Assembly (NCBI GenBank): GCA_029881995.1
Contig: JAOULO010000001.1
Coordinates: 1-64,000, forward strand
Source: Gammaproteobacteria bacterium
Lineage (GTDB): Bacteria > Pseudomonadota > Gammaproteobacteria > UBA6429 > Thiohalophilaceae
DNA length: 64,000 nt
Reading direction: 5' to 3'
Positions 10,783-40,166 of the stretch are shown piece by piece. Position numbers and translations under genes: made by a program. The notes under the pieces were generated by a model that saw only the letters and a list, made by a program, of their open reading frames with translations, was not told where the DNA came from and did not search any database. Numbering within the stretch: the first letter of the stretch is position 1; every line of letters starts with the position of its first letter.

Positions 10783-10939
10783 GGTTAAATCTCTCTTCAC
10801 TGGTTATGCTTTACACCTGTCTGAAAAACCCCGATAATACCCGAGTTAATTAGTCGGATTATATCACATATCGTGGTCATATATAGACTGTATATCTGCA
10901 TATTAATCGATCATTTCAAGTTGTTGGAGTAATAATAGT
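10783..10939. promoter_or_regulatory. divergent promoter region, Fe-S carrier / yggX
   Basis: The 157-base gap separates two divergently read iron-related genes and must hold both promoters. It is AT-rich around 10850-10920. I see no clear Fur or IscR box by eye. Confidence 0.4.
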
Positions 10940-18346: not shown

Positions 18347-19534
18347 TCAGTACCATAGTGAAATATATAACTGCATCACATTTGCGGTAAATTCATATAA
18401 AGGCTCATTACCAACAAGGGTATCGTCATTTAAAGAGACTCGGGCATCTCGGAAGTCTTCATATTCAAATTTAATGTAATCATAGGCTATATTGGCGCTG
18501 GCCTTATCGAATATCCACCAGCCATTTTTGGCAAATTCGTAACTGATGGATGCCCCCAAGGTTGTGCTGTTGAAGGTACTAAGTTCCTTATCCCTGGCTC
18601 TAAAATCCAACACCTGGGTACTTTGCTCCGCATGTAAATCACTGTAAAAATCAGCGTGAGTTTGTGAATACAGGCGATAGCGTAATTCCAGTATCAGATA
18701 CTCACCGAAGGGGTGGGTATAGCCGACTTCCGAGTCATTGGCTTCGATTCCCCAGTCATCGGCAAAGACTCTCTGCTTATAATGAATAGCGGCTCGATAA
18801 GGCAGAAAATAATTCATCTTGATAGAAGCGGCTCGACTGGTTCTTGTGGCGGGATAAACTTCAGTTCTATATTGATCACCACTGCCCGAGACAAAACGAT
18901 ATTGTCGGTAAGGGTTGTTAAGGTAACCCTCATCCGTAATGGTTTCAAAATTGGCGGACAATACAAAATTTTTACTCAGAATCTGGGATAGACCTATACT
19001 ATAACTTTGTCGAATAGCCTCTTCATGAAAACCAGATTCACGTGTTCGAACACCACCGACATACTGTGTCCTAAAAATATCATCCTTTCCTTTAGCATAC
19101 CCCATAGTGATAGTAGTCAAGTCACCAAACATATCGGTGCTAATACCAAAATTATATGAACTTGCCTCATAATCATTCTCATCACTGTTTGTCATACCAA
19201 GACTCATGATGGTCTTACCATGTAATATGTCCATACCTACAGACTGTTCGACACGCTCCTCACTGTAACGACTGGCACCAAGAACCTGTACATCAATCGA
19301 AGCACTGCTGATGTTGTCGACATAATGATTGGCATAAACCGAAAAGGTCTTATCATCGCCTTTTCGAACAAGGATAGAAGGTCCAGTAATATCTATTCCG
19401 CCACCCTGATAAGAATGAGATAAAATATCGGCCCTATCCTCAGGCAATACCGCAGCACTGACGGAAAAACTCATCAGTAACAACCAAATATAAAAGCAAC
19501 AAGTTGTAAACCTAGTTACAGCCACAGCCACCAC
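18347..19534 (-). CDS. DUF3570 outer-membrane beta-barrel-like protein
   Basis: About 395 residues with a signal peptide ending 'SFSVSA'. The remainder alternates short polar/aromatic strands ('ASIKMNYFLPYRAAIHYKQR', 'YLILELRYRLYS', 'LGASISYEF') and ends 'MQLYISLWY', as expected of an outer-membrane barrel. The opening 'DRADILSHSYQGGGIDITGP' and 'VLVRKG'-type segment mark DUF3570. The open frame continues to 19582, but GTG 19534 has GAAGG eight bases upstream and gives a normal signal peptide. It overlaps the end of the DUF4266 gene by 23 bases, indicating translational coupling. DUF3570 is commonly encoded beside DUF4266, TlpA-type thioredoxins and ApbE; all four occur in this window. Confidence 0.82.
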   Translation of the reverse strand: MVAVAVTRFTTCCFYIWLLLMSFSVSAAVLPEDRADILSHSYQGGGIDITGPSILVRKGDDKTFSVYANHYVDNISSASIDVQVLGASRYSEERVEQSVGMDILHGKTIMSLGMTNSDENDYEASSYNFGISTDMFGDLTTITMGYAKGKDDIFRTQYVGGVRTRESGFHEEAIRQSYSIGLSQILSKNFVLSANFETITDEGYLNNPYRQYRFVSGSGDQYRTEVYPATRTSRAASIKMNYFLPYRAAIHYKQRVFADDWGIEANDSEVGYTHPFGEYLILELRYRLYSQTHADFYSDLHAEQSTQVLDFRARDKELSTFNSTTLGASISYEFAKNGWWIFDKASANIAYDYIKFEYEDFRDARVSLNDDTLVGNEPLYEFTANVMQLYISLWY

Positions 19535-19727
19535 CCTGACTACCTTCACCACCACGAGCCCCTTCACGGGCTTCATAAACATGTTTACGATAGGAGGATG
19601 ATATAGGGTCGCGAGAAAAACTCATAATGGGATCAGCCAGATTAGCCCTTTCGTAAGGCTGTACCCACGGCTCAACCGCACACGCAGAAAGCAAAACCAA
19701 AAGCTGAACCATCAATATCTTTTTCAT
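19512..19727 (-). CDS. DUF4266 mini-lipoprotein with Gly/Cys tail
   Basis: A 71-residue lipoprotein. The lipobox 'LLSAC' places the acylated cysteine at residue 16. A short conserved body 'EPWVQPYERANLADPIM' and 'YRKHVYEAREGARGG' is followed by a terminal 'GGGCGCN'. That ending and body identify DUF4266. Two cysteines in a glycine-rich end suggest metal, haem or thiol chemistry, and the neighbouring TlpA thioredoxin (two bases upstream) would be a natural partner. No function is established. The gene overlaps DUF3570 by 23 bases. Confidence 0.85.
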   Translation of the reverse strand: MKKILMVQLLVLLSACAVEPWVQPYERANLADPIMSFSRDPISSSYRKHVYEAREGARGGEGSQGGGCGCN

Positions 19728-19729
19728 AC

Positions 19730-20242
19730 TTATTCTCGAATCAGCGCCCGAACCTGTTTCTGGTAATCTTTTTCATAACCGGGCTTGTAGCCTTTATGTA
19801 AATAACGAAGACGACCATCCCGATCAATAATCACGGTAGTAGGCATGGCTGCGACCTTATACAACTTGCTGACCTTATTCTTGTTGTCATACAGGATTGG
19901 AAAACTCACTTTAATACTTTTAAGCAGTGTTGCAGCCTTGCTGGAGTCTTCTTCAACATTGACCCCCAGCAATGTAAACCCTAGAGGCTTATACTTTTTA
20001 TACAGGTCTTCAAGTAAAGGCATTTCCTGACGACAGGGGGCACACCATGATGCCCAGAAATTGATCATGACGACCTGGCCACGAAATTCACTGAGTTTCA
20101 GATTCTTGCCACTCATACTTTTTAAAGTGAAGTCGGGAGCTTTACCACTAAGCTGAGCAGCCTGCAGACTGCTTATGTGACTGCTCGATACAATAATGGC
20201 TAAACATAACCCAATAAAACTTTTCACATTAGTCGTTCTCAT
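19730..20242 (-). CDS. TlpA-family thiol:disulfide oxidoreductase
   Basis: A 170-residue exported thioredoxin-fold protein. The signal peptide ends near residue 29. 'APDFTLKSMSGKNLKLSEFRG' spans the family start, the redox motif is 'WCAPC' (cysteines 67 and 70), and the cis-proline loop is 'AAMPTTVIID'. It probably reduces disulfides of an exported partner, such as the cysteines of the adjacent DUF4266 lipoprotein or apocytochrome CxxCH sites in the haem proteins of the same cluster. It lies between the barrel gene (11 bases) and DUF4266 (2 bases) and is co-transcribed with them. Confidence 0.9.
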   Translation of the reverse strand: MRTTNVKSFIGLCLAIIVSSSHISSLQAAQLSGKAPDFTLKSMSGKNLKLSEFRGQVVMINFWASWCAPCRQEMPLLEDLYKKYKPLGFTLLGVNVEEDSSKAATLLKSIKVSFPILYDNKNKVSKLYKVAAMPTTVIIDRDGRLRYLHKGYKPGYEKDYQKQVRALIRE

Positions 20243-20253
20243 GCTGCTTTCTC

Positions 20254-20913
20254 CTAGAAAAATATCGCCATCCCAATAGTAAATTCAAGATTATTAACTT
20301 TTCTCTCCCGAGCAAAGTAATCGTGCTGGAAGGTATGATTACGCATATCAATATGAACGGATAACCAGTCTGCACCGATAAAGCGATAGCCCACCCCGTA
20401 TACAAAAGTTGAGTGCTCATCACCACCGAATTCAGTAATTCCGGATCCTACTGTCAAATAGAGATCGGTATTAAAAGCCATATCGTTCCCCCAGAAGACT
20501 TCTCCTGGTAACAGGTTATAACCCAGCATAATATTGTAATAGGTTAAATCACGATCACTTTGGGTAAAAATATCACTACCACTGTACTCTTCCTGACTTG
20601 ACTTGCTGGTTGTTGTCTTACCCATAGTGGACATCAGAAAGACATCTTCTGTCAGATGAAAGGCCAGTAAAATTCCCTGTACACTATTGGCACCAAAATC
20701 TTCTACGCTCATGGTGCCGGTATAATAGCCAATCTCAAATGTTTCACTGTCAATTCCTGCTATTCTGACATCTTTACGTTGAACTTCTGGCTTGAAAACC
20801 TGTTCTTCAGCCTTCATAGGTTCAACTGCACAGGTTTGTGTTATAAACACCATGCAGATAGCCAGGGTTACAATGAACTGACCTAGAAAAAACTGCCGAC
20901 GCCCACAGTCCAT
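20254..20913 (-). CDS. outer-membrane beta-barrel protein (myxobacterial-type OMP domain)
   Basis: A 219-residue protein with an N-terminal hydrophobic export segment (about 10-30) and a barrel ending 'LEFTIGMAIFF', with the C-terminal aromatic residue typical of BAM substrates. Strands such as 'YYNIMLGYNLLPGEVF', 'TDLYLTVGSGITEFGG' and 'FVYGVGYRFIGADWLSVHID' match the small barrel domain seen in Myxococcus-type outer-membrane proteins, including Glt/Nfs barrels. The frame overlaps the end of the upstream SH3-barrel gene by 31 bases. It may form an outer-membrane complex with that protein. Start not certain, because no good ribosome binding site precedes 20913. Confidence 0.75.
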   Translation of the reverse strand: MDCGRRQFFLGQFIVTLAICMVFITQTCAVEPMKAEEQVFKPEVQRKDVRIAGIDSETFEIGYYTGTMSVEDFGANSVQGILLAFHLTEDVFLMSTMGKTTTSKSSQEEYSGSDIFTQSDRDLTYYNIMLGYNLLPGEVFWGNDMAFNTDLYLTVGSGITEFGGDEHSTFVYGVGYRFIGADWLSVHIDMRNHTFQHDYFARERKVNNLEFTIGMAIFF

Positions 20914-21620
20914 ATCGATATTTCCTCATTATCATTACTACTGGAAAAAATAACATAATCTTTATATTCAGCACGCATAAAAAAACTTCGTGACAAATAA
21001 ATGCGCACTCCTACACCAACATGTGAAGTATTATCTTCCTGATCTTTCTGCCTGACCAGCGATGAACGGGTTCTAGTCTTAATGGTACCGGTTCCCAGGC
21101 TGAAAAACGGTGATACACGCCACTCGGGAAAAGGCTGAGCAAGTAATTTGATATCAATAAGTGTACTTACCGACAGGCTACCTATCATTTGGGATAGTGA
21201 AAATTCGGTAGAGATAACAGGATTCAGTGCATAGGCACCATAAACATTAAATACATCGGCCCCCTCTGCGCTTCCCCACTGGGTGCCAACCTCCCAGTTA
21301 CGCTTAAAAAAATCATCCTGAGTATAGCCAGGCAGTACAAACTTCTCCCCATCGGGCGTCACCGTTTTAATTAATTCCCGCCGGTGTACCCAACCTTCCT
21401 GTCCTTTATCTGTTTTAACCTTAAACCAGCTTGTCTGTTGTTTTAAGACACTTATCCAGTTACCCCGGGGTAGATCGTGAAAGATTGGGTAGCCTTTTCC
21501 AGGGCCAGTGTGGATACTTATGAAAGGTTCAATCACCTTAACTTTCTGAACTGGTTCACTCCCAGTGGCTGGCTGAATCCAGCAAAATACAAAAGTTAAT
21601 AATAATATTCTGAATCTCAT
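20883..21620 (-). CDS. exported bacterial SH3 domain plus outer-membrane barrel
   Basis: About 245 residues. The signal peptide is followed by an SH3b-like domain (about 27-90) with 'ISIHTGPGKGYPIFHDLPRG' and 'WFKVKTDKGQEGWVHRREL'. A barrel domain (about 110-245) ends 'ISIWTVGVGSFF'. SH3b domains often bind peptidoglycan or peptides, so this protein could link the cell wall to the outer membrane. ATG 21620 has AGGTG eight bases upstream and is preferred over GTG 21641. It overlaps the next barrel gene by 31 bases. Confidence 0.78.
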   Translation of the reverse strand: MRFRILLLTFVFCWIQPATGSEPVQKVKVIEPFISIHTGPGKGYPIFHDLPRGNWISVLKQQTSWFKVKTDKGQEGWVHRRELIKTVTPDGEKFVLPGYTQDDFFKRNWEVGTQWGSAEGADVFNVYGAYALNPVISTEFSLSQMIGSLSVSTLIDIKLLAQPFPEWRVSPFFSLGTGTIKTRTRSSLVRQKDQEDNTSHVGVGVRIYLSRSFFMRAEYKDYVIFSSSNDNEEISIWTVGVGSFF

Positions 21621-21734
21621 GACTAAGACACCTGAACACACGTCATGAGTATACAGGTTTTAACTTCTCTTGTTGTTATCTATTGCGCAGATAATCAATG
21701 TGCATATGAATCTAAAACTGGATAGCTCAAGTCA

Positions 21735-24656
21735 TTAATTTTCTGGCACCATGAAGGGGTTGTTGTAATATTGACCACCCGCATCCAGCCACTCTGAAAT
21801 TAATTTAAGCTCGGCAGGAGACAGTGCTCCTGTGTGATTAAATTTATTGTTTGGATCGACAGGTTCACCCATATCGAGTACTACAGTACTGTCCTGCTCC
21901 ATGGCATTAAAGAACCTGGTACTACTAATTGCACCGTTGGTTGATAACACGGCCTGAGGGCCCGGATCGACAGACGTAAGGATATCAATTAGCACAGGAT
22001 CAAAAATTTCCATTTCATTCTCATCCAGGATGGGATTACCTTCTTCATCTTCCCTACGCACTAATATTTCTGCCTGTACATTCTCAAGTGTCGTCCCATC
22101 AAATGACTTCTGTTGAACATCCTGGACAAACAACTCCTGATAGGACTTGAGACGATTCTGATTATCCCTAGGGTCGATCTGCAGACTTTCAGCGCTATCA
22201 TCAAGGTTAATCTGAGTACCGGTAGTTATCCCATTGACGTTGTCAGGAACAGTCGGAATTGCAGAAATCAGTGGATTGTCAGTGTATGGTTCAGGTGGAG
22301 CAACATTACCATCCTTATCCCAGGGAGCATGACAACCGTTGTTGGTGCAAGTGGCGGCAACATCATCAACGTTCTTTCGCCCGGTTTTACGCCACAGAGG
22401 GGCAATATGATCAATATAATTGATAGTTACCCGGCAATTCGATGACCAGGCAACATCGCAACCTGCAGCATAGGGTTTTAGATCACCAACGGTATAAATA
22501 TCACTATACAGATATTCAAAAGACGGTTCCTTGCTAAATACAGAGATAGTATCAAGACTGTCGATATTTTTAGTCCAGATATCCTGATAGGTCAGGTTCA
22601 GTGAAGGATTGACTCCAGGACATTTTTTACCATCACAATGTCGTATTCTTGTCTCTGCCATGGTTTCACCAACGTTGGCAATCATATCCGTTTCCATGCA
22701 TTCGTAGTTACGCTCTATCGTGGCTCCTGAGTTAATGCTGGCTACGGCTTTTTTATTTCCATGGGTAACAGTTGAATTACGTAGGTGACAACCATTGCAC
22801 TCCAGGGTTTCGCCAGACTGTACCTGTAGCCAGGTAACATGGCGTGGTGTTGTGCCATCCTGAGCACTTGCTATATTGATTCGCCTGCCCTTGCTATCCA
22901 GAATTTGAAAACTAAATGGAGTATCTGCGGGTACTGTTACCTTAACTGAACCATCAGGTTCAATCGGGGCATACCCCAGAATATCGACAAAACTGTGAAC
23001 ATTTTCATTGCTGACACCCCGGGCGATATTACGTCGGCCATTGCTCATCACCTGAGTACTTGGATTGGTTAAAGGTTTTATAATACGAAGGAAACGGGCC
23101 CTGCTACTCCCAATAACACCATAGTCAGCCATTTCCTGTGGAGATACAGGTGGTCGTTCATCCAGTGAGATATCAGCCATGTCAGTCACCGGAATATCTG
23201 AACAGGATACTGATGGTTTTCGGATCATGGCACCCAGTGCATTGAATGTCCCATCAAAATCATAAACACTTCGAATATGTAACACACCAGTCTTTCCATC
23301 GCCTTCCACCGCTTCCAGTACTGGTGGGTATGGCCTGTTCTGCGCAGCAACAACATCGGTAATCATTATGTCTTCGGTAGGATTAATAATTGGTAGCTTG
23401 GTATTGTCTCCATGATTAAGGACAAACAAGCCATAAAACGGTGGCGCTGCTTCCAGACCTTCAATTGAACCAAGCTGTGTACATGAGACATATTTCCCAT
23501 CCACTTCTACACGACACTGAGTCCAACTAACCAGACTACGGTTAGAACCATCAGTGAGTGGATATACCGAATGGTATCGACCACCCGCTGAAGGACCGAC
23601 GATGGTACTAACACTTCCCCCTGTTAAGGATTCCTGCCCATTGCCAGACAGACCTTGATTGTCTTTATTAGGTCTTCCGTAATCGACAAAATAGTTGGTA
23701 TCAATTAGCACCATGTCACCACCACCAAACGTGCCTTCGAAAGGACGGGCAATGGTAAGCAACCTGCCATCGTGATATTCCCGTGGTTGCATAAACTGGA
23801 TATCTAAAAGGTTAGTCCCAGTTTCATGGCTGTTAGATCCATACATTAACTGCAAATCAGTACCATCTGGATTGATGGAATAGAGATTGATTTCATTATT
23901 TCCGAGCCGGTTCCTGTCCCAACGGCTAAAGACAATCTTACCATCACTTCGAACGATGGGATCCATATCCCGCTTAGGGCTAAAGGTCAGTTGCTGAATA
24001 TCTGTTCCATCCGCCTCCATAACATGCAACATCAGGGCTGGAATGTCTTCCCTATCCACTTCGGTCGTGAATCCCGTTTTGCCTTCATCGGTGAGTACTT
24101 CTTTGGAACGTTGTTGTCGGGTAGAGGTAAATACAATGCGACCATCAGGTAAATAGTAGGGTGCGACATCATCACCCTTTTCTGAAAACTCATCCAGCTC
24201 AATGACTCGCCGAAGATTGCCAGTAGGAATATGGTATTCCCAGATATTCCAGGTGGGCTGATCTTCAGGGTCAGCATCTTCAATCTCAGGCTTACGCATG
24301 GCAAAAATCAATTTGGTGCCATCGTATGAGGCTTCTACATCCTTAACATCCCCCATGCTATTTACACTGGTCTCCCCATTGCCCAGATCACGGGTGATGG
24401 AGTGGGTCACATTGACTTCACCGGCCTGAGAAGAGGCATAAGCTCGAACAAACAAATCTGCCCCAGGATTAAAAGCAATATTATCCCTGGCATCGGGATA
24501 AGTAGGATTTTGTTCCTCATCGACAGGAATCGGGCGTTTAACATAGGCAATAGGAAAAGGCTCAACCAGTGGATCCTGGCCTTTACTGCCTCCCCCACAG
24601 GCGGATAACAGTATCAGCGCAACCATAACGACCAGTCGTTTGTGTATTACTTCCAT
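21735..24656 (-). CDS. HzsA-like lipoprotein with PD40 propeller and c-type haem motifs
   Basis: A 973-residue lipoprotein (lipobox 'LLSAC', then Gly-rich linker). Residues about 100-480 contain TolB/PD40-like propeller repeats ('YYLPDGRIVFTSTRQQR', 'IVRSDGKIVFSRWDRNR'). The C-terminal half resembles the middle domain of hydrazine-synthase alpha subunit-like proteins. It holds a haem-c motif 'CNGCH' near residue 619 and a looser C-x4-C-H ('CTNNGCH') near 770. 'SGAT' near residue 642 resembles the acceptor of FMN attachment by ApbE, but the preceding aspartate is missing. It is divergent from the plus-strand haem protein genes and likely works with them at the cell surface. HzsA-like proteins are widespread and need not make hydrazine. 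Confidence 0.78.
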   Translation of the reverse strand: MEVIHKRLVVMVALILLSACGGGSKGQDPLVEPFPIAYVKRPIPVDEEQNPTYPDARDNIAFNPGADLFVRAYASSQAGEVNVTHSITRDLGNGETSVNSMGDVKDVEASYDGTKLIFAMRKPEIEDADPEDQPTWNIWEYHIPTGNLRRVIELDEFSEKGDDVAPYYLPDGRIVFTSTRQQRSKEVLTDEGKTGFTTEVDREDIPALMLHVMEADGTDIQQLTFSPKRDMDPIVRSDGKIVFSRWDRNRLGNNEINLYSINPDGTDLQLMYGSNSHETGTNLLDIQFMQPREYHDGRLLTIARPFEGTFGGGDMVLIDTNYFVDYGRPNKDNQGLSGNGQESLTGGSVSTIVGPSAGGRYHSVYPLTDGSNRSLVSWTQCRVEVDGKYVSCTQLGSIEGLEAAPPFYGLFVLNHGDNTKLPIINPTEDIMITDVVAAQNRPYPPVLEAVEGDGKTGVLHIRSVYDFDGTFNALGAMIRKPSVSCSDIPVTDMADISLDERPPVSPQEMADYGVIGSSRARFLRIIKPLTNPSTQVMSNGRRNIARGVSNENVHSFVDILGYAPIEPDGSVKVTVPADTPFSFQILDSKGRRINIASAQDGTTPRHVTWLQVQSGETLECNGCHLRNSTVTHGNKKAVASINSGATIERNYECMETDMIANVGETMAETRIRHCDGKKCPGVNPSLNLTYQDIWTKNIDSLDTISVFSKEPSFEYLYSDIYTVGDLKPYAAGCDVAWSSNCRVTINYIDHIAPLWRKTGRKNVDDVAATCTNNGCHAPWDKDGNVAPPEPYTDNPLISAIPTVPDNVNGITTGTQINLDDSAESLQIDPRDNQNRLKSYQELFVQDVQQKSFDGTTLENVQAEILVRREDEEGNPILDENEMEIFDPVLIDILTSVDPGPQAVLSTNGAISSTRFFNAMEQDSTVVLDMGEPVDPNNKFNHTGALSPAELKLISEWLDAGGQYYNNPFMVPEN

Positions 24657-25049: not shown

Positions 25050-26375
25050 ATGCATAACATGGCCAACCTCACCCCAACAGGCCCAGCAGCAAAATCCAGG
25101 CGGATCACTCCCAATAAGCTTTTAAGCTATGGCCTTGTCTGTATTATGATCCTGATGGCTCAGTCACCTGCCTTTGCTGGAAAGCGTGAACAGGCCAAAC
25201 GCATTCATGATCTGCTGGTTGGTGCAGCACCATCTAACACTTTGCTCGATTCCATGGCCACTGCAGTTGGTGATGCTGCCGATCCTCCCATAGCCAATTT
25301 AATTAATGCTGCAAATCTCGCATTAGCAGATGCTGAATCAAAAAAAGTTTTTGCCAATGTCACCCTGAAAAACTTTGCCAGCCCATGGACCAATGAGGCA
25401 CAAAGTGTATTTGAACCGTTAAATGATTACTCGGCAACCGTTGCCGGGATGATTATCAATGACGATGATTTCAGAGAAGTCCTGTTTGGTAACTATATTT
25501 ACACAGGTGGCAACAGTGCTGGTACTCCATACTCGCCAAACAATAATGCCCACTATATTGCTCTAGAAAATCAGAATATCGATCTTTCAACATCACTGGA
25601 AAAAACAACCCAAACGATTGCAGCTCCAGCAGGAATTATGACCACCCGTGCTGCAGCCCGTGCTTACTTTATAGATGGTACAAATAGAGCCATGTTACGG
25701 TTTACTTTCCTAAATCACCTTTGTTATGACATGGAACAATTAAAAGACAATACCCGGCCAATGGATCGAATTCGTCAGGACGTATCACGCAGTCCTGGCG
25801 GTGATAGCCGATTGTTTATGAACAACTGTGGTGCCTGTCATGCTGGGATGGATCCACTGGCACAGGCCTATGCCCGTTATCAATGGGAATATACTGATCA
25901 GGAAGATAATGGTGTACTTGCCTATACCGCAGATAGTATCCAACCCAAATATCACATTAATAGCAATAACTTCAAAGGTGGCTATGTAACAGAGGATGAC
26001 AACTGGACCAATTACTGGCGTAGAGGATCAAATGTCTGGCTGGGCTGGGGGCAGAACACGCCTCATCATGCCGACTATGCCCTTATCGCGTTAGACACAA
26101 CAAATGATAGTCCAGAAGTGAACGTCAGCCATGGCACTGGAGCTAAATCTCTGGGTGTTGAACTGGCTCACAGCGATGCATTTGCCCGTTGTCAGGTGAA
26201 GAAAGTTTTTAAAACAGTATGTATGCGCAACCCACAGAATAATACTCAAAGTGGTGAAGACGACACTAATGCCTTTAATAACATGGTAGCTAATTTTAAA
26301 GGTGCATATGGATACCGTCTGAAAAATGTATTTGTCGAGGCAGCTGCCTACTGCAGTGGTCCTAGTACACTCTAA
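25050..26375 (+). CDS. exported haem-c protein, DUF1585/DUF1588-like
   Basis: A 441-residue protein with a signal peptide ending 'QSPAFA' near residue 43. A single haem-c motif 'CGACH' lies near residue 259, within 'SPGGDSRLFMNNCGACHAGM'. The region before it, 'TTRAAARAYFIDGTNRAMLR' then 'LCYDMEQLKD', is like the DUF1592/1588/1585 group of planctomycete-type cytochrome-associated proteins. It heads a plus-strand operon with a LamG/haem lipoprotein, a Tat protein and ApbE. GAGGG at nine bases supports the start. Role: likely an exported electron-transfer or substrate-processing subunit, inferred. Confidence 0.72.
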   Translation: MHNMANLTPTGPAAKSRRITPNKLLSYGLVCIMILMAQSPAFAGKREQAKRIHDLLVGAAPSNTLLDSMATAVGDAADPPIANLINAANLALADAESKKVFANVTLKNFASPWTNEAQSVFEPLNDYSATVAGMIINDDDFREVLFGNYIYTGGNSAGTPYSPNNNAHYIALENQNIDLSTSLEKTTQTIAAPAGIMTTRAAARAYFIDGTNRAMLRFTFLNHLCYDMEQLKDNTRPMDRIRQDVSRSPGGDSRLFMNNCGACHAGMDPLAQAYARYQWEYTDQEDNGVLAYTADSIQPKYHINSNNFKGGYVTEDDNWTNYWRRGSNVWLGWGQNTPHHADYALIALDTTNDSPEVNVSHGTGAKSLGVELAHSDAFARCQVKKVFKTVCMRNPQNNTQSGEDDTNAFNNMVANFKGAYGYRLKNVFVEAAAYCSGPSTL

Positions 26376-26421: not shown

Positions 26422-29202
26422 ATGAATAAAATCAAGGATAACGTACAACCTGACGGTTCAAACTACCTGAGTTTTCTCTCGCTAAAAAATCTCTTTTTCT
26501 GTATCAGTCTGGTGCTATTTATCTCAGCCTGTGGTGGTGGTGAAGACAGTCAGCGTGATCCTGGAGGAAATAAACAGGAGCTTGGAGATAGTACAGCTAC
26601 AGCGAAGGACAATGATGTTTTTCAATTTCAAACCCATGTGTGGAAGCCTCTGCGTGACTCCGATAAAGAATGTGGACGTTGCCATAGATCACAGGCTCAA
26701 ACTAAAGGTAAAACATTTTTCCTGGATGATGATATTAATCGTGCATACGATCAGTTTATCGAAAACGGCTTGATGGAAAAATCCAAAGATCCGGAAACAA
26801 ATATTGAAACGGTTAAATCGAGTTCAAAGTTAATTGTTCGCGTTGGCCCTTCATTAAAACACTGGTGCTGGAGTACACATGTTGATTGTCAGGAAGAAAT
26901 GACCACCATGCTTAATAGAATGATCAATGGTTATACAAGAGGTGTTGAAAGTAGAGAAACCGTACTAACACCTATTAAACCTGAAAATCAAAAAGCACTT
27001 GGTGACAGTCTACTTTTCCCTAAGGAATTACCAAGTTCTCCAAGCGGCATTTATGACGGCGTCCACAACTTGCTAACTCAATATTGTTCGAACTGTCATC
27101 GACAAGATGGACCACAACAACAACAACTACCCTATTTTGCAACTGCCAACAAACAGGATTCCTATAATGCTGCCAAGGTCAAAATAGATCTGAACAACCC
27201 TGAAAATTCCGAACTGGTTCAACGACTGAAACTGGAACACAACTGCTGGGATGTCTGTGATGATGATGCAGAGGAAATGCGACTTGCCATAATTAAGCTG
27301 GCAGCAGACATTAAAAGTCTGGGCATCAAACTGGATGATGAAAATATTATCATCAGCAAGGCCCTGGTTTTACTGGAAGACGGTGTACAGGACACTGGTG
27401 GAAACAGGTATGAAGCCAATCAGATAGCCCTGTATGAATTCCAGAATGGTTCCGGTAGCACAGCCTTTGATTCCAGCGGTATCCAGCCATCGCTTAATTT
27501 GACACTTTTTGGCAACGAAGGAATCGACTATCGCTGGCTTAGTAATTGGGGCATTGAAATCCTGACACCCCTGGGTCGGGCACAGGGCAGCACCTCAGAT
27601 AGCAAGAAACTACATAACCGCATTAAACTATCTGGCCAGTACTCCATTGAAGCATGGGTCATTCCAGGAAACGTAACACAGATGGATTCCAATATTGTTT
27701 CCTACTCTTTTGGTGAAGAGAAGAAAAACTTTACTCTTGGCCAAAACATGTATAACTACGAGTCCTATCACCGAAGCAGCACAACAGGCGCAGGTGATGA
27801 TGCACTGTCTACTCCAAATGGTGATGAAGTACTACAGGCGAGCCTTCAACATGTTGTCGTGACTTATGATTCCTTTAGTGGACGAAAGATATATGTTAAT
27901 GGTGAGCTAATCAATGTCAGTGAACCTGATGACCAGGGTGGAAACCTGCTGAACTGGGACTCATCATTTGCCCTGGTGTTGGGAAATGATACTGATACAG
28001 ATCGGCCATGGTTGGGTATTTTACGCATGGTTGCTATTCACGATGCTGCCTTGAGTCAGGAACAGGTCAAATTTAATTTTGATGCGGAAGTTGGTCAGAA
28101 ATACCTGATGCCATTTGCGGTCAGTCACATTGATGGTATGCCAGACGAAAGTTATATCGTGTTTGAAGTCAGTCAGTATGACGAATTCAGTTACCTGTTC
28201 AGGGCTCCCCGTTACATAAATCTCGGTGGTGTTGCTCCAGCAAACTTTGGAACTGTACCTCTAAAAGGTATGCGAATTGGTATGAATGGTGATGAGGTTG
28301 CCGTTGGACAGGCATATTCCAATGTCGACATTGGTAACCTGGCAACCAGTTACGTCGAAGGTGAAGGTAAATCACTTTCTAATATCGATACCATCGTGGA
28401 ACTTCAAAATGGCTCAGATATTGATGAGTTTTTCCTGACTTTCGAAAAACTCGGTGGAGATGAACGTAATCAGGATGTGGCAGCCTATGATGAAAAAGAT
28501 GCAAACCCAACCGATATTCCCGCCTTGCGAACAGTAAATAACGACACTATGACACCACGAATTGGTGTCCGTACCTTTGATGAAATCAACGCCACCATGG
28601 CGAAAATGCTGAAAATCAATGACTGGGCAGGAATTCTTGACATCAATAATAGCAACCCCGAACTGAACGAAGGGAAGTTAGGCACCTTTGTTCAGTATCG
28701 CCAGCAATTCCCTGCCGGAGAGAGTATTGAAGGCTTTGCCACATCACACCAGATGGCGATCTCGCAGCTTGCCATTACTTACTGCAAAGTTCGGATAGAT
28801 CGTGATATCAATAAGACACATGACATCTTCTTCACGGGTTTTGATTTTGGCCAGAATCCTTCTGTTGCCTTTGCCAATGAAGCTGCTGTTGATACATTTA
28901 TTGCCCCTCTATTAACTGAGGTAGTAAATGTTTCAGAAACTGCTATTGAGCTGACTACGCAACCTGAAGTTTCATTCATTCGTAATGAGATGTACAAACT
29001 AATACTTCATGGGGATACCTTTACTAATCCCGATGACTATCCGACCCCTGATAGTTTGGGTCATACCGAGAATATTAATATAGAGAGAGTTGCATTGATC
29101 TCAGCAGCCTGCGATGGCACATGTACCTCAGCTCGTACAAGATTAATTGCTATATCAGCATGCTCGGCTGTGCTGGGCAGCGCCATCATGTTGATTCAAT
29201 AG
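26422..29202 (+). CDS. lipoprotein with two CxxCH motifs and a LamG domain
   Basis: A 926-residue protein. The lipobox is 'FISAC', followed by a Gly-rich linker (about residue 37). Haem-c motifs are 'CGRCH' near residue 84 and 'CSNCH' near 221. A concanavalin-like LamG domain (about 355-555) includes 'YSIEAWVIPG', 'HVVVTYDSFSGRKIYVNGEL' and 'LVLGNDTDTDRPWLGILRMV'. A further C-terminal domain of about 350 residues is unassigned. The whole protein resembles planctomycete-style surface haem proteins that combine haem and sugar/protein-binding modules. It is flanked by genes 46 bases upstream and 31 bases downstream, all plus strand. Confidence 0.75.
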   Translation: MNKIKDNVQPDGSNYLSFLSLKNLFFCISLVLFISACGGGEDSQRDPGGNKQELGDSTATAKDNDVFQFQTHVWKPLRDSDKECGRCHRSQAQTKGKTFFLDDDINRAYDQFIENGLMEKSKDPETNIETVKSSSKLIVRVGPSLKHWCWSTHVDCQEEMTTMLNRMINGYTRGVESRETVLTPIKPENQKALGDSLLFPKELPSSPSGIYDGVHNLLTQYCSNCHRQDGPQQQQLPYFATANKQDSYNAAKVKIDLNNPENSELVQRLKLEHNCWDVCDDDAEEMRLAIIKLAADIKSLGIKLDDENIIISKALVLLEDGVQDTGGNRYEANQIALYEFQNGSGSTAFDSSGIQPSLNLTLFGNEGIDYRWLSNWGIEILTPLGRAQGSTSDSKKLHNRIKLSGQYSIEAWVIPGNVTQMDSNIVSYSFGEEKKNFTLGQNMYNYESYHRSSTTGAGDDALSTPNGDEVLQASLQHVVVTYDSFSGRKIYVNGELINVSEPDDQGGNLLNWDSSFALVLGNDTDTDRPWLGILRMVAIHDAALSQEQVKFNFDAEVGQKYLMPFAVSHIDGMPDESYIVFEVSQYDEFSYLFRAPRYINLGGVAPANFGTVPLKGMRIGMNGDEVAVGQAYSNVDIGNLATSYVEGEGKSLSNIDTIVELQNGSDIDEFFLTFEKLGGDERNQDVAAYDEKDANPTDIPALRTVNNDTMTPRIGVRTFDEINATMAKMLKINDWAGILDINNSNPELNEGKLGTFVQYRQQFPAGESIEGFATSHQMAISQLAITYCKVRIDRDINKTHDIFFTGFDFGQNPSVAFANEAAVDTFIAPLLTEVVNVSETAIELTTQPEVSFIRNEMYKLILHGDTFTNPDDYPTPDSLGHTENINIERVALISAACDGTCTSARTRLIAISACSAVLGSAIMLIQ

Positions 29203-29233: not shown

Positions 29234-30853
29234 ATGGGTAAAAAACGCAAGTCACTACACCCTAATGAGCCATTAAGACACAACGATCATCCAAGGCCTG
29301 TCAGCCGACGAGATTTTCTTCGCCAGGGATTTATTACCGGCAGCGGCGTTGTTATGGGTGGCGGTATTTTCAGCCTGTTTTCTAATCCCCATGAAGCCTA
29401 TGCTGCGGTTTCTAATATATCTGGTGATATTCATAAGATGGCTGATATTGCGGGCTGCCCCGTTGGTGGGGGAGCGGGTACCAAACTACCCTTTATCTGT
29501 TTTGATCTTGCCGGTGGTGCAAGCCTGGCCGGGGCCAATGTCCTAGCTGGTGGTCCTGGTGGGCAAAAAGACTTTATCAGCACCGCAGGTTATAGCAAGT
29601 TCGGAATTCCTGATACGATGTTACCCACTGCAGCTGACGAAAATATCAATAGTGAACTCGGTCTCCTGTTTCACGAGCAAAGTACCATGAAAAACGGGAT
29701 CGTTGAAAAGGCCGGCTCAGCCCTGAACAGGATCAATGGCGTGTTAATTCCTGCCCGCTCAGACAACGATACAGGTAATAACCCACATAACCCCATGTTT
29801 GCCATTGCCAGGGCTTTTTTAAATGATGATCAAAGTGGCAAAGTCCTTTCACTTGTTGGTTCACGCAATAGTGACTCAGGGGGTAATTCTACTTTTCCTC
29901 CCAGTTTTATGAACCCAGAACTCATACCTACCAAGATCGATCGACCCTCCGATATCACTGGCATGCTGGACACCGGTAGCCTCACCGGCATTCTTGACAA
30001 GGATGATCTCAAAGTTGTCATGGAATCCGTTGCACGCCTGAGTCATCAGAAACTCAGCAAAGTTAGTACTGGCACAATTGTTAGCCGTGATGAACTCATC
30101 GAGAACCTGGTGAAATGCGGATATTTAAGTGCCGCTGATATTGCCGATCGCTTTGCCGATGTCAAAGTGAATCCTGCTGAAGATGAGGCCATCGTCGGTG
30201 ACACCGGTATCTTTAGCCAGGGAGAGTGGGATGGCCCTGATAGAAATGAATTCCGTAAGACTGCCTCAGTCATGAAAATGGTACTAGATGGCTATGCAGG
30301 TGCCGGTACGATTACTATGGGTGGCTATGATTACCACACAGGTGAACGAGTCACAGGTGATGATCGTGACGAACGAGCCGGTCGTTGTATCGGAGCCTGT
30401 CTGAACTACGCAGCCCGACGAGGTGTACCATTAATGATCTATGTCTGCAGTGATGGATCTGTTTCCAGTAATGGCCGTCCCGACCCCAATGCAGACGGTA
30501 AAGGTGAATGGACCACTGATAACTCTTCAACAGCAGCTTCATTTATCCTGTTATTTGATCCCCTGGCTGGTGGCCGGCCACAGATACTAACGAATACCGT
30601 ACCAAATCCAAGCCTAGGCCAGATTGGCTGGTTCTCTCGGGATGCTTCGGTGGTACGTAACTCCAGCCCGGCAGCTGATAATGTCCTGTCCCTAGTCAAT
30701 ACAGTTTTACTGAACTACATGTCCGCTAGTGGAATGATTTCTTCTTCTAATACATCAGCATTTACTCAAATCTTTACTGATCTGAGCATTTCACATGGCT
30801 TGGGAAATAACTTCGATCGCCTGATGGCATTCGGGCCTGTTAACTCACCTTAA
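29234..30853 (+). CDS. Tat-exported DUF1501-like protein
   Basis: A 539-residue protein with a twin-arginine signal: 'SRRDFLRQG' at about residues 24-32, then a hydrophobic segment and cleavage near 'EAYA'. The body contains 'FICFDLAGGASLAGANVLAG', 'NPHNPMFAIA' and 'MGGYDYHTGERVTGDDRDE'. It resembles DUF1501-type proteins, relatives of the alkaline phosphatase/sulfatase fold often paired with DUF1585/1592 proteins. Tat export implies folding, perhaps with a cofactor, in the cytoplasm. GAGG upstream of ATG 29234 supports the start. Function unknown; distant family match only. Confidence 0.65.
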   Translation: MGKKRKSLHPNEPLRHNDHPRPVSRRDFLRQGFITGSGVVMGGGIFSLFSNPHEAYAAVSNISGDIHKMADIAGCPVGGGAGTKLPFICFDLAGGASLAGANVLAGGPGGQKDFISTAGYSKFGIPDTMLPTAADENINSELGLLFHEQSTMKNGIVEKAGSALNRINGVLIPARSDNDTGNNPHNPMFAIARAFLNDDQSGKVLSLVGSRNSDSGGNSTFPPSFMNPELIPTKIDRPSDITGMLDTGSLTGILDKDDLKVVMESVARLSHQKLSKVSTGTIVSRDELIENLVKCGYLSAADIADRFADVKVNPAEDEAIVGDTGIFSQGEWDGPDRNEFRKTASVMKMVLDGYAGAGTITMGGYDYHTGERVTGDDRDERAGRCIGACLNYAARRGVPLMIYVCSDGSVSSNGRPDPNADGKGEWTTDNSSTAASFILLFDPLAGGRPQILTNTVPNPSLGQIGWFSRDASVVRNSSPAADNVLSLVNTVLLNYMSASGMISSSNTSAFTQIFTDLSISHGLGNNFDRLMAFGPVNSP

Positions 30854-30898: not shown

Positions 30899-30962
30899 TT
30901 CAGCATTATGTATTATTTGTGCTACCTTCTGATTGTTGGTCATAACATCAGGTAAATACCCT

Positions 30963-31973
30963 TTGTATCACTCATTCACTCCACTCCTTTCACTGTCCAT
31001 AATATTCAGTATATTACCCGGTCTTGCATCAGCCACCTGGTATAAGGAAGAACTGGCCATTATGGGAACGTCCGTCAGTGTTGAACTCTGGCATGACAAA
31101 CGCCTCCAGGCTGAAAAATGTATTTCTCTGGTAATGAATAATATGCGACGTATTGATCAGACCATGAGCCCCTATAAGCCTGATAGTGAACTAAGTCGAC
31201 TAAATAAAAAGGCAGTGAGTAAACCATTTAAAGCCAGTAAAGAACTTTTCCAACTCATTAGCCAGGCCAATAAAATATCGGACATGACCAGGGGAAAATT
31301 TGATATCACGTATGCCAGCACAGGCTATTTATACGATTATCGAAATGCTGTACGACCCGATAGTAAAAAAATAGATGTCCTGCTTCCTGCGATTAATTAC
31401 AGGCACATCAAGCTCACTCCTCGGAAAAGACTCGTAAAGTTTAATCATCCCAATGTAAAAATTGACCTTGGTGGTATTGCTAAGGGCCATGCCGTCGACC
31501 AGGCCATCATGATCCTCAAGCGGTGTGGGATTTCCCAGGCCCTAGTCAGTGCCGGAGGAGACAGCCGCATTGTTGGAGATAAACAGGGTTTACCCTGGAT
31601 GACCGGGATTCGCCATCCTCGAGATAAAAATGGTTTTGCCGTAGTGCTGCCACTGACCGATACCGCCATCTCCACATCAGGCGACTATGAACGGTTTTTT
31701 ATCGAAAATGGCAAACGCTACCATCATATTCTCAATCCCAGCTCAGGCCAGCCAGCGGATAAATCACAAAGTGTTACCATTTTGGGAAAAGATGCGACCA
31801 CCACTGATGCCCTGTCCACGGCGGTGTTTGTCATGGGGTCTGAGACAGGCCTAGCTTTTATTGAATCCCTGCCCGGGATTGAAGCCATCATCATCGATAG
31901 CAAAGGCAAAATTCATTACACAAGTGGCCTTTTAAAACCTAAGGATAATAACAATACATCCAAACCTGATTGA
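30963..31973 (+). CDS. apbE: FAD:protein FMN transferase (ApbE)
   Basis: About 336 residues. ApbE uses FAD to attach FMN covalently to Ser/Thr of exported proteins in the periplasm. Family landmarks are 'MGTSVSVELW', 'IDQTMSPYKPDSELSRLN', 'KIDLGGIAKGHAVDQ', 'ISTSGDYERFF', 'HHILNPSSGQPAD' and 'TTDALSTAVFVMG' (metal/FAD site). A signal peptide precedes the domain. No ATG opens the frame. TTG 30963 has AGG ten bases upstream and yields a clean signal peptide; TTG 30933 just after an in-frame TGA is the longest alternative. It lies after the redox-protein genes and probably flavinylates one of them or a DUF4266/DUF3570 partner. Confidence 0.9.
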   Translation: MYHSFTPLLSLSIIFSILPGLASATWYKEELAIMGTSVSVELWHDKRLQAEKCISLVMNNMRRIDQTMSPYKPDSELSRLNKKAVSKPFKASKELFQLISQANKISDMTRGKFDITYASTGYLYDYRNAVRPDSKKIDVLLPAINYRHIKLTPRKRLVKFNHPNVKIDLGGIAKGHAVDQAIMILKRCGISQALVSAGGDSRIVGDKQGLPWMTGIRHPRDKNGFAVVLPLTDTAISTSGDYERFFIENGKRYHHILNPSSGQPADKSQSVTILGKDATTTDALSTAVFVMGSETGLAFIESLPGIEAIIIDSKGKIHYTSGLLKPKDNNNTSKPD

Positions 31974-32244
31974 AATGGTTGAAATGTGACCAACCACACG
32001 GCATAGACTCCGCCAAGCCCCTACATTTAGCTATATAAATGGCCAATACAATCGCTAGTTTGATTGAATAAGTCTAATCCTTATTTGATTAGTGGTTATC
32101 CGCTCGGCCCACAAGCCGGATTTCACAATCATTTGACGACTCTCAATTAACTCCCTCTTTTGTAGTAAGTTTTTGGCCTGATCGCTGTCGTTGATGGTGG
32201 ATAACCATTAAAATAAGGTAGTTTTGAAGGAGCAGGATCTCGAC

Positions 32245-32790
32245 ATGAATTACAAAACCATTTTCATCTCATTTTTACTGGCGTTTGCACTAGTAGCATT
32301 AGGTCTGGCAGGTCAGGTAAGAGCGGAACAACAAAACAATAAGCTTTCGGCCCTGGGCAATAAGGTAGAAGAATTAAAAAAAGAGATTCTCGAATTGAAT
32401 CGAGACCTGTTTATCCTGGAAGAAGAGTTACTGTTTCCTGCAAATACTCAATTTACTGTTTTCCTATCTATGGATAAGGGCCAATTGTTTACCCTCGACT
32501 CGGTTCAAATCAGACTCAATGATAAAATTGTTGCCAATCACCTTTATACCGAACAGGAACTCAAGGCCCTGCTTCGAGGTGGTGTTCAGCGTGTTTATAT
32601 GGGGAACTTACCCAGTGGCCGTCATGAGCTGATAGCCTATTTCAATGGTGTTGGTCCTAAAGGACGTGATTTTAAACGTGGAACCACTATTGCTCTGGAA
32701 AAGTCGAGTTCACCCAAGTTTGTTGAATTAAAAATTACTGACGATACCAGCAAACAACAACCCAAGTTTAATGTGAAGGTCTGGGAGTAA
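32245..32790 (+). CDS. exported coiled-coil protein heading the TPR/Tol-like operon
   Basis: About 181 residues with a signal peptide (to 'QVRA', about residue 27), a coiled coil of about 35 residues ('NKVEELKKEILELNRDLFIL'), and a compact beta-rich domain ('FTLDSVQIRLNDKIVANHLY', 'RVYMGNLPSGRHELIAYFNG'). I do not know the family by name. It heads a collinear operon of TPR, TolQ/TolR-like and AgmX genes and is therefore probably a periplasmic part of that machine. ATG 32245 with CAGGA seven bases upstream is preferred over TTG 32224. Confidence 0.7.
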   Translation: MNYKTIFISFLLAFALVALGLAGQVRAEQQNNKLSALGNKVEELKKEILELNRDLFILEEELLFPANTQFTVFLSMDKGQLFTLDSVQIRLNDKIVANHLYTEQELKALLRGGVQRVYMGNLPSGRHELIAYFNGVGPKGRDFKRGTTIALEKSSSPKFVELKITDDTSKQQPKFNVKVWE

Positions 32791-32801
32791 TTTCATTAAC
32801 A

Positions 32802-34670
32802 ATGAAAACCAATAGCAAACAAGGACGTCTTAGCCTGTTTGTCCTGTTTCTATCAGGCTATTTTTCTATCACCTCTTTGAGTTTAGCTCAGGACGAAGAG
32901 CGACTGGAAATTCGTAACTTGCACTTTGGCGAGACCCTGTACCACTTTTATCAAAAGCAATATTTCACAGCAATTTCAGATCTTCTTGTTGCCCAGAAGA
33001 AACACCCTATCCAGACTCAGGGTGAGAACCCAAATTTATTGCTTGGTGGCCTATATCTCTCTTACAACATGACTCAACGGGCTGGAAATATTTTTACCAG
33101 TCTGACTCAAAAAGATATATCAAAAAGACTCCAGAGCAGTGCATGGTATTACCTGGCTCGAATCGCTTATCAAAATAGCGAACTGGAAAAGGCCAATCTA
33201 GCCGTTAACAAGATTGGGGTTCACCTGCCGTTTCGTTATAACGATGAGCTGCAACACTTACAGGGCAATATCTTACTCAAACAGAAAAACTATAAAGATG
33301 CCATCAAGATTCTCAGTCAATATTCTGATTCAACAGACTGGTCTCACTATACAAAATTCAATCTTGCCATCGCCCTGATCATGGCCGATGAAAATGAAAA
33401 AGGCACTGAATTACTTGAAGAAGTCGCCGAACTGGATGCCCAAGATATAGAACAAATCGCACTACGGGACAAAGCAAATCTGGCACTGGGTTATGCGGCT
33501 TTAAAAGCTAAAGATAACGAAACTGCAGCAGACTATTTCAGACAAATCCGTTTATCCGGTTCCCAGTCCAACAAAGCACTATTAGGCATCGGCTGGGCTT
33601 TTCACAAAGAAGGCAAGCTCAAACGTTCACTGGTACCCTGGGTTGAGTTAAAAAATCGCTCTTCGAAAGACCCTGCTGTTCAGGAAGCTCTGTTAACCAT
33701 TCCCCATGCCCTTGAAGGGCTAAATGCCAAGGAACAGGCCCTGGCATATTATAATGATGCAATAAACTCCTATAACAAAGAACTAGCAACACTAAAATCT
33801 GTCATCAATTCCGTCAAACAAGGTGAATTCATCAAATCATTACGGGTTCTGCATTTACATCAGCAAAAAGAGAATCACCTCCATTTCACAACACTACCTG
33901 ACTCAACCGCAACTCCTTATCTGCAGAGTTTAATCGCAGGCCAGGAGTTTCAATCCATATTGAAGAATTATCGTGATTTGTTGTATATGAAAAATATTCT
34001 TACTCATTGGAATAACCAGATACCTTCTTATAGGTTGATGTTGAATGAGAGAGAAAAAGCTTACGATTCTCGTATTCCTAAAATTAGTGCATTCATGAAA
34101 AATACCCAACAGACTAAGTTGTTAAACCGATACAGAAAGCTAAAAAGCCGCTTAGAAGCAATAGAAAAAAATCATGTTGTATTTGCCCTGGCCAGTGAAC
34201 AGGAAATGAACCTGCTTAATAAACTTTCAAAAATTAAAAAATTGTTGGATAAAGTCCCTCCTGGTCAGCTTGAGGAACAACATGATCAATATCGCTTGTT
34301 TAAAGGTATTTTGTACTGGCAAGTTGCTACTGACTATACCCCACGTTACTGGCAGGTAAAAAAACGCCTTCTTGAAATAGAAAAGGCCTTTAGTAAGCTT
34401 GAAAAGAAAAAAACCTCATCACTTACTACTCTGGTAAAAACTCCTGAATATTTCAAAGACTTTGCCAATAACATTAATAACAAACAAAGAAAAATAAAAA
34501 ACCTGAATCAACAAATATCAAATGTCATAAAATACCAGGAAAGTCTGATCAACCGAATTGCCATTGATGAATTAACAAAGCAGAAGCATCTCATCGAAAA
34601 TTACCATATTCGGGCCAGCTATTCTCTGACTCGTCTTTATGACAGCCTGGCTGTGGTCGAGAAAAAGTAA
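32802..34670 (+). CDS. exported TPR-repeat protein
   Basis: A 622-residue protein with a signal peptide ending near 'SLSLA'. Tandem TPR-like helical pairs cover about residues 40-320 ('SAWYYLARIAYQNSELEKAN', 'ANLALGYAALKAKDNETAAD', 'ALLGIGWAFHKEGKLKRSLV'). A Lys/Glu-rich coiled-coil region follows (about 400-610). The stop is directly followed by the ATG of the next gene. In Myxococcus-type Glt/Nfs systems, exported TPR proteins link inner-membrane motor and outer-membrane parts. This is the role I infer here. Confidence 0.75.
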   Translation: MKTNSKQGRLSLFVLFLSGYFSITSLSLAQDEERLEIRNLHFGETLYHFYQKQYFTAISDLLVAQKKHPIQTQGENPNLLLGGLYLSYNMTQRAGNIFTSLTQKDISKRLQSSAWYYLARIAYQNSELEKANLAVNKIGVHLPFRYNDELQHLQGNILLKQKNYKDAIKILSQYSDSTDWSHYTKFNLAIALIMADENEKGTELLEEVAELDAQDIEQIALRDKANLALGYAALKAKDNETAADYFRQIRLSGSQSNKALLGIGWAFHKEGKLKRSLVPWVELKNRSSKDPAVQEALLTIPHALEGLNAKEQALAYYNDAINSYNKELATLKSVINSVKQGEFIKSLRVLHLHQQKENHLHFTTLPDSTATPYLQSLIAGQEFQSILKNYRDLLYMKNILTHWNNQIPSYRLMLNEREKAYDSRIPKISAFMKNTQQTKLLNRYRKLKSRLEAIEKNHVVFALASEQEMNLLNKLSKIKKLLDKVPPGQLEEQHDQYRLFKGILYWQVATDYTPRYWQVKKRLLEIEKAFSKLEKKKTSSLTTLVKTPEYFKDFANNINNKQRKIKNLNQQISNVIKYQESLINRIAIDELTKQKHLIENYHIRASYSLTRLYDSLAVVEKK

Positions 34671-37493: not shown

Positions 37494-38079
37494 ACTCCAG
37501 ATTACACTCTACATTCTTGGCATAAGCCTGCTTTCTGGTTGTGTTTCATTAGATAGTGCTACTCAACCCGAGGTAGCTGAGCATATTAAACTTGCTTACC
37601 AAACAGCACTTATTTCTATGAAAAAAGGAAAATACAAACTCGCGATTAAACAGTTTAATAAAATCATTAAACAACAACCTGGACTGGCAGGACCACATAC
37701 CAATCTCGGCATCATTTACCTAAAGAAAAAATCTCTGGATAAGGCTAGACAGTCCTTAGAAAAAGCCATTGAACTCAACAAGCAAAGTACTATTGCCTAT
37801 AACCATCTCGGTATCGTATATCGTAACATGGGACGTTTTGATGATGCTGAGCAAGCATATTTAAAAGCCATTGAGATCAATACCAGTTATGATTATGCTC
37901 ATCTCAATTTGGGTATACTTTATGACCTCTACAAATCTGATGGCAACAAAGCCATTAACCATTACCAACAGTATTTAAAATTAAGCAACAAACCCGATAA
38001 AATGGTTGAAAAGTGGATTGTCGATATCCAGAGGCAGAATAAAACTGCTGCAAGTAACGCAAAGGAGACACCAGGATGA
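37474..38079 (+). CDS. small TPR lipoprotein
   Basis: About 201 residues. The lipobox is 'LLSGC' (cysteine near residue 23), then three to four canonical TPRs: 'AYQTALISMKKGKYKLAIKQ', 'THLGIIYLKKKSLDKA'-type, 'AYNHLGIVYRNMGRFDDAEQ' and 'AHLNLGILYDLYKSDGNKA'. PilF-like arrangement, but the operon points to the Tol-like machine. ATG 37474 (rather than 37447) starts the signal peptide. Its end overlaps the next gene by four bases. Confidence 0.8.
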   Translation: MLKTFIKLQITLYILGISLLSGCVSLDSATQPEVAEHIKLAYQTALISMKKGKYKLAIKQFNKIIKQQPGLAGPHTNLGIIYLKKKSLDKARQSLEKAIELNKQSTIAYNHLGIVYRNMGRFDDAEQAYLKAIEINTSYDYAHLNLGILYDLYKSDGNKAINHYQQYLKLSNKPDKMVEKWIVDIQRQNKTAASNAKETPG

Positions 38080-38348
38080 GAAATAAACTATTCCTAAGTA
38101 TCCTGTTTATACTGGTCTCTCCGCTAGCCCATGCAGAGCGAATTATTATGCAGGGGACTGCCGTAATTGGAAATCAGGAATTACCAAAAGTCCTTTATAT
38201 TGTGCCATGGCAGAAATCTGAATTACCGGATCTCAGTGACCCTCCACTTGAGAGCTTGATTGATGAAGCCTTAGCCCCCATTGATCGTAATGTTTTTAGA
38301 AGGCAAGTAGAATACTATCGGGTGCTGAGTGGATCTGAAAACCAATAG
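38076..38348 (+). CDS. small exported protein of the TPR/Tol-like operon
   Basis: A 90-residue protein with a signal peptide ending 'LAHA' near residue 20, leaving a mature part of about 70 residues with 'KVLYIVPWQKSELPDL'. No family recognised. The start ATG overlaps the upstream stop (ATGA), which ties it to the TPR genes. A 163-base gap separates it from the TolQ-like gene. Confidence 0.65.
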   Translation: MRNKLFLSILFILVSPLAHAERIIMQGTAVIGNQELPKVLYIVPWQKSELPDLSDPPLESLIDEALAPIDRNVFRRQVEYYRVLSGSENQ

Positions 38349-38511
38349 AATGAGAACCAGTAAACGTTATTACGCCACATGGCACACTAAATTAATGCTA
38401 CAAATTAATGGGTCTGGCAACAAACTTATGGAGTCTGGTATTCTAAATTACTTTAGTTACAGATTATTCCAAGGCTTAGATATTTAATAAATTCCACGTC
38501 AGGAGCGAGGT

Positions 38512-39150: not shown

Positions 39151-39155
39151 TCATC

Positions 39156-39644: not shown

Positions 39645-39653
39645 AGTCAAAAT

Positions 39654-40160: not shown

Positions 40161-40166
40161 TTAACT

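Follow-up and report, generated by a model that had tools for sequence, protein, structure and literature searches.

A small lipoprotein gene and its neighbours

The window (the whole stretch of 64,000 nucleotides of gammaproteobacterial DNA that was analysed) carries a very small gene (19512..19727, -) whose product, a precursor of 71 amino acids and a mature protein of 56, belongs to the DUF4266 family (PF14086, E 1.5e-24; 87.1 bits against a curated cut-off of 27, with profile positions 1-50 of 50 aligned). In the profile search the family spans residues 22-71 of the ORF, which is nearly the whole mature protein. A signal peptide, a lipobox read from the sequence (LSAC, with Ala at +2; 19680..19691, -) and a C-terminal CXC make the product a small secreted protein with a CXC end, and the tiny lipoprotein proposed in the initial annotation is thus real. 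It is predicted to be an outer-membrane lipoprotein, as the +2 residue fits outer-membrane sorting; Asp at this position was absent from every DUF4266 homologue scored.

The C-terminus reads GSQGGGCGCN before the stop, and the codons of the GGGCGCN tail lie at 19515..19535 (-). Invariance of this tail among homologues, which the initial annotation had set as a check, was found in two sets of loci. In the class sample of 274 gammaproteobacterial genomes, where 83 DUF4266 genes were read in their neighbourhoods, CGC was kept in 83/83 homologues and always one residue ahead of the stop, with Asn as the last residue in 76 of the 83 and a nearly constant mature length. The second set, from named genomes, comprised 80 further loci (the best 80 of 510 DUF3570-B matches), and in the 78 that had upstream DNA from which the tail could be read, CGC was again invariant (78/78), the ends being GGGCGCN in 77 and GGGCGCS in one. 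No conserved His or additional Cys was found near the tail in the alignment of the 83 homologues. AlphaFold modelled DUF4266 alone, with low confidence, as two weak helices and a disordered tail.

DUF4266 was detected in 66/274 and DUF3570 in 71/274 of the genomes of the class sample, adjoining each other, and two types were distinguished. Type A DUF4266 reads VKPWERG...HIYFSKEASSGG...GGGGCGCN and is accompanied by TlpA, by a DUF3570 fitting the Pfam model over its full length and usually by an adjacent ApbE. Type B, to which the window belongs, reads PWVKPYERANLADPIMSF...AREGARG...GGGCGCN. The possibility that the tail is kept merely through its codon overlap with the start of DUF3570 was rejected, as type A, with another DUF3570 subfamily, has the same tail. 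The initial annotation took conservation with "so little body" to suggest that the tail is the working part of the protein, which is too strong, since body residues are also invariant within type B (P5, W6, P9, Y10, E11, R12, D17, I19, M20, H34, R39, E40, A42, R43 and G44 in an alignment of 31 homologues, mature numbering).

The order of the type-B operon is very constant and runs from a haem/propeller lipoprotein through an SH3-barrel protein, a small barrel and TlpA to DUF4266 and DUF3570. In the window these are a propeller/haem lipoprotein with a middle domain like that of the hydrazine synthase alpha subunit (21735..24656, -; PF18582, E 2e-13), of which the homologues usually have two CXXCH motifs; an SH3 domain with an outer-membrane barrel (20883..21641, -; PF08239, PF13505); a small outer-membrane barrel of the OMP_myx_plus kind (20254..20913, -; TIGR04565, E 5.5e-38); and a TlpA-like periplasmic thioredoxin with WCAPC (19730..20242, -; PF00578, E 8.1e-32), whose gene ends 2 bases upstream of DUF4266. 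DUF3570 follows directly after DUF4266. Divergent from the operon are an exported one-haem protein (25050..26375, +; no Pfam match) with one CXXCH in 72/72 homologues, a LamG-domain lipoprotein with CXXCH motifs (26422..29202, +; PF13385, E 4.9e-20) with two of them in 34/36 homologues, and an exported protein with a twin-arginine signal recognised by eye (29234..30853, +; conserved in the cluster, no Pfam match), with ApbE lying beyond in the window. The haem genes of the type-B operon are absent beside type A. TlpA was found beside DUF4266 in 34/36 type-B loci of the class sample and in 78/80 of the named set (best 80 of 510), and it carries WCXXC in type B; the coupling to TlpA and DUF3570 suggested in the initial annotation therefore recurs in homologous loci. 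A few loci (genomes G131, G167 and G334) have the tail and no TlpA, and TlpA seems therefore to be replaceable. The best 80 of the 510 DUF3570-B matches come from records of Gammaproteobacteria (among them Thiodiazotropha, Steroidobacter and Alcanivorax), except for a few from MAGs that carry a Rhodospirillales or Rhodospirillaceae label.

Some further observations were made around these genes. No DUF4266 was found on plasmids by tblastn. At one locus (L130, G213:C54:56365-57138) a DUF4266 match lacking the tail half lies beside a DUF3570 that is interrupted by a stop, and the pair is apparently in decay. Elsewhere in the window an IscA/HesB-like protein, recognised by eye (10405-10800, -), has a C-terminal CGGCGGGGCGA run that superficially resembles the DUF4266 tail. 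Downstream of DUF3570 lie genes resembling cyclopropane-fatty-acid synthase and FAD oxidoreductase (by eye; 15745-18179, -), and a few type-B loci (L131, L174 and L183) have homologues of one or both in the vicinity of DUF3570.

The DUF3570 barrel, its candidate flavin sites and ApbE

The open frame of the type-B DUF3570 lies at 18347..19582 (-; PF12094, E 1.2e-37), with the predicted mature barrel at 18350-19450. Here, and likewise at several other type-B loci, this frame continues without a stop through the DUF4266 tail, which is read in another frame, and the true start codon is therefore uncertain; the overlap suggests overlapping or coupled starts. AlphaFold modelled DUF3570 as a 16-strand barrel (pLDDT 89.6, pTM 0.85), and in structure comparison the model resembled the barrels of BamA, PelB, CymA, OmpG and FadL, a likeness that we take no further than "outer-membrane barrel". 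Cysteine is absent from 75/79 mature type-B barrels. A disulfide between the tail and the barrel was thus rejected for most members, and this leaves TlpA as the thiol partner within the module.

Two [S/T]GA[S/T] sites of a DUF3570 have been shown to receive FMN from ApbE (PMC8238504), and the general ApbE motif is D-x-x-[S/T]-G-A-[S/T], in which a change of Gly to Ala retains about half of the flavinylation (PMC12052999). Type-B DUF3570 proteins have tandem sites of the forms DxxSSAS and DxxTxAS. The candidate sites in the window are DNISSAS with S51 of the mature protein as acceptor (19298..19318, -; D, A and S unchanged throughout the alignment of DUF3570-B) and DVQVLGAS with S60 as acceptor (19271..19294, -; D and S invariant). 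Among 17 diverse DUF3570-B proteins the first site kept its Asp, Ala and acceptor Ser, and the second its Asp and acceptor Ser, without exception; a larger set included a few Thr acceptors. As the window's DUF3570 has SSAS and LGAS instead of two strict [S/T]GA[S/T] sites, keeping the acceptor Ser, the Ala and the upstream Asp, it is filed as a variant. Most type-B sites have Ser where the ApbE motif has glycine. Judged by their sequence, the tandem sites fit a flavinylation site with a relaxed glycine and may be flavinylated. Variants of site 1 were also seen in type A when the sequences were inspected where the strict pattern had missed several (for example DGLTGSS and ESMTGAS; L059, L091 and L112 were left out of this inspection). 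In the model the loop that follows strand 3, which has low confidence, holds both acceptor serines. Outer-membrane barrels usually have both termini in the periplasm and their long loops outside, and by this rule the flavin loop would be on the outward side.

The ApbE flavin transferase of the window (30933..31973, +; PF02424, E 9.6e-82) lies 11 kb from DUF4266 on the opposite strand, inside the conserved cluster. ApbE was found within 15 kb in about 17/37 type-B loci of the class sample, where 1-2% would be expected if a 3 Mb genome carried one or two copies. The ApbEs of type-A and type-B clusters split at 98/98 support in a maximum-likelihood tree, with the window's ApbE in the B group, that is, in the clade of ApbEs beside type-B DUF3570; the distant ApbE pointed out in the initial annotation is therefore part of the same system. 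In a larger but quick tree, which has weak inner support and was used for placement only, ApbEs 10-12 kb and 24-30 kb off, and several on other contigs, joined the B group, and a third, generic ApbE group was distinct. Seven genomes (G179, G204, G077, G128, G206, G064 and G197) have intact type-B pairs and no B-group ApbE, which is a real argument against strict dependence.

Natural variants and the Agl/Glt-like genes

Three genomes have DUF3570-B and no separate DUF4266 (G017, G056 and G193). G017 has lost the CGC and carries the DUF4266 body as a fusion in front of the barrel; against the type-B profile the fused body gave E 4e-7, a match that stood far clear of those of 667 background ORFs and of 200 shuffles, while a Pfam search assigned no family to this N-terminus. 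G017 retains TlpA (WCGPC) despite the loss of the tail, and in G056 and G193 neither DUF4266 nor TlpA was found in the operon. The fusion argues for a physical association of DUF4266 and DUF3570. The first flavin site was intact in 0/3 of these genomes without CGC versus 114/114 loci with CGC, the acceptor being changed to Pro in G056 and G193 and the surrounding residues being replaced in G017. Since the three genomes represent two lineages, a Fisher p of 3.8e-6 overstates the significance. G056 and G193 still have the second site. Neither G017 nor G056 yielded a B-group ApbE, and in G193 one of two ApbEs was scored for clade placement.

Beyond ApbE the window has a run of genes (32224..41057, +) with NCBIfam likeness to the Agl/Glt core: a small protein, TPR proteins, a TolQ-like protein (E 2e-21), two TolR-like proteins (E 4.8e-4 and 8.3e-6) and a GltG-like protein (E 3e-15, below the equivalog cut-off) with an AgmX/PglI C-terminal domain (E 3.5e-21). 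TolQ-like, two TolR-like and GltG-like genes thus stand in one run, as in an Agl/Glt core; the GltE match is below its curated cut-off, and GltC and GltD are candidates by position and TPR only. Homologues of these genes follow DUF3570 in 47/116 (the small protein at 32224), 45/116 (TPR) and 26/116 (TolQ-like) type-B loci, in counts that include many stretches of incomplete length, and near type A only two stray single matches were seen. The large TPR protein was found in 35/36 type-B genomes and in G017, G056, G193 and G186, compared to about 16/234 of the remaining genomes. As it co-occurs also in the genomes with losses, the type-B barrel seems to be part of an Agl/Glt-like machine, to which the thiol-flavin unit seems to be a losable addition.

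A possible thiol arm, its alternatives and the known systems

We consider there to be an even chance that DUF4266 is a flexible thiol arm between TlpA and FMN bound to the barrel, in type B within a larger envelope assembly. The short body would dock on the DUF3570 barrel, and the disordered, glycine-rich tail would carry a redox-active CGC alternating between dithiol and disulfide. The CGC could exchange with the CXXC of periplasmic TlpA, itself possibly reducible by DsbD, and could exchange electrons with FMN fixed covalently by ApbE on the DUF3570 loop; the type-B unit would probably supply or sense electrons for a larger envelope assembly with haem lipoproteins and an Agl/Glt-like core. 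Conservation, co-occurrence, the fusion, the loss of the flavin site along with the tail, a barrel modelled with confidence and the lack of cysteine in most barrels were found here and support this arm; the outer-membrane location, the type-B flavinylation, the docking, the thiol chemistry, the electron direction, the final acceptor and the role in an assembly are inferred. Free FMN has a potential near -0.21 V. The CGC disulfide has one of about -167 mV, and CGC peptides are redox dithiols that mimic protein disulfide isomerase (PMC4316792). From these two potentials the electron direction cannot be told. Against the arm, the flavin loop is predicted to face outward, where an inner-leaflet lipoprotein would not obviously reach it; the glycine is relaxed, some genomes lack an ApbE of the type-B clade, TlpA is replaceable and G017 has TlpA without the tail. 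Against the weight of the joint loss, it rests on two lineages.

Among the roles that the initial annotation offered for the tail, that of a thiol is the best. Nothing found favours a metal or haem ligand, and we regard it as unlikely that the CGC binds Cu, Fe or Zn or coordinates haem, with DUF4266 as a metallochaperone or metal site for the barrel or for the haem proteins next to it. In favour of such a role, metal binding is possible for glycine tails rich in cysteine, and the type-B operon encodes proteins with haem motifs. The VIT1 iron transporter occurs in some DUF3570 clusters (PMC8238504). Against it, type A has the same tail without the type-B haem genes, the neighbours that stay constant are a thioredoxin and a barrel with flavinylation, the tail disappears along with the flavin site, and the tail has no conserved His or extra Cys nearby. 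The absence of haem genes from type A, which keeps the tail, also weighs against the idea of an arm like a thiol-disulfide isomerase, which would mature an exported disulfide or haem protein with the flavin barrel as a separate partner. TlpA/ResA-type proteins serve cytochrome c maturation, and haem-protein genes are present in the type-B operon. The likeness of CGC peptides to protein disulfide isomerase (PMC4316792) fits this idea too; however, DUF3570 and the two small barrels mostly offer no cysteine and the joint loss is left unexplained, and we find it improbable. The near-invariant last Asn and the fixed distance from CGC to the stop would suit a covalent-modification site or a C-terminal recognition signal for an enzyme not yet recognised. 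The initial annotation had offered a site of modification, with apbE mutants as a check, and ApbE as the modifier was rejected: ApbE needs the Ser/Thr motif D-x-x-[S/T]-G-A-[S/T], which the tail does not have and of which DUF3570 carries a variant form. Pfam and NCBIfam recognised no other modifying enzyme among the genes of the window's cluster, and we regard a modified or recognised tail as very unlikely.

If the thiol arm is correct, a trio of families without assigned function becomes a testable chain of TlpA, CGC arm and barrel flavin, for which natural loss and fusion variants could serve as controls, and electrons would take an unusual route, through a thiol coupled to a covalent flavin at the outer membrane. 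The chain is tied to the gammaproteobacterial Agl/Glt core, which was described in 2011 without a known function (PMC3169522). A bolder and doubtful extension is that type-B DUF4266 and DUF3570 form an outer-membrane electron gate without a multihaem cytochrome, in which electrons would pass from TlpA to CGC in the barrel, to tandem FMNs on the outward loop and to surface haem lipoproteins, serving the Agl/Glt-like complex. If this were true, the gammaproteobacterial Agl/Glt core would be a redox-linked envelope machine.

Compared to known systems, MtrCAB conduits likewise tie an outer-membrane barrel to redox proteins, and MtrB (6r2q_B) was at Foldseek rank 4, although the fold likeness to DUF3570 is that of barrels generally. 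In contrast to these conduits, no multihaem plug was recognised, the haem proteins of the cluster carry few CXXCH motifs, and the cofactors proposed here are FMN held covalently and a lipoprotein with a dithiol. LptD/LptE is a barrel with a lipoprotein partner, and DUF4266 is similarly a small lipoprotein apparently paired with one barrel; in our case, however, docking on or plugging of DUF3570 by DUF4266 is presumed. The Agl/Glt core complex is conserved in Gammaproteobacteria, its function being described as unknown (Luciano et al. 2011, PLoS Genet, PMC3169522). The run in the window is alike in its TolQ-, two TolR- and GltG-like genes, has a TPR gene as a candidate GltE, and differs in being linked to the thiol-flavin unit; the available text of that paper holds no mention of thioredoxin, DUF4266 or DUF3570.

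The closest known relatives are the clusters of DUF4266, DUF3570, a thioredoxin-like protein and ApbE described as "DsbD systems" by Meheust et al. 2021, eLife (PMC8238504), the only place in the literature collection searched where DUF4266 or DUF3570 is named. The function is thus less undescribed than the initial annotation proposed, as the association, the conserved CXC of DUF4266 that may redox-cycle and the flavinylation of DUF3570 were published there. The window shares the four families, the small secreted CXC protein, ApbE with a DUF3570 substrate and the thioredoxin-like partner, with DUF3570, the thioredoxin-like gene and DUF4266 adjacent and ApbE in the conserved cluster. DsbD is typical of DUF3570 clusters and absent from 316 published ones (PMC8238504); in the cluster of the window none was found, and DsbD_TM matches occur on other contigs of the genome. 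The window differs in its divergent DUF3570, in DxxSSAS/DxxTxAS replacing the two [S/T]GA[S/T] sites, in an ApbE 11 kb off on the other strand and in the attached haem operon and Agl/Glt core. The two types, the fusion, the joint loss, the cysteine-free barrel and the type-B context are additions to the published module, and the window holds a known module in a distinct variant and a new setting, with its own DUF3570 subfamily, ApbE clade, haem operon and Agl/Glt-like genes.
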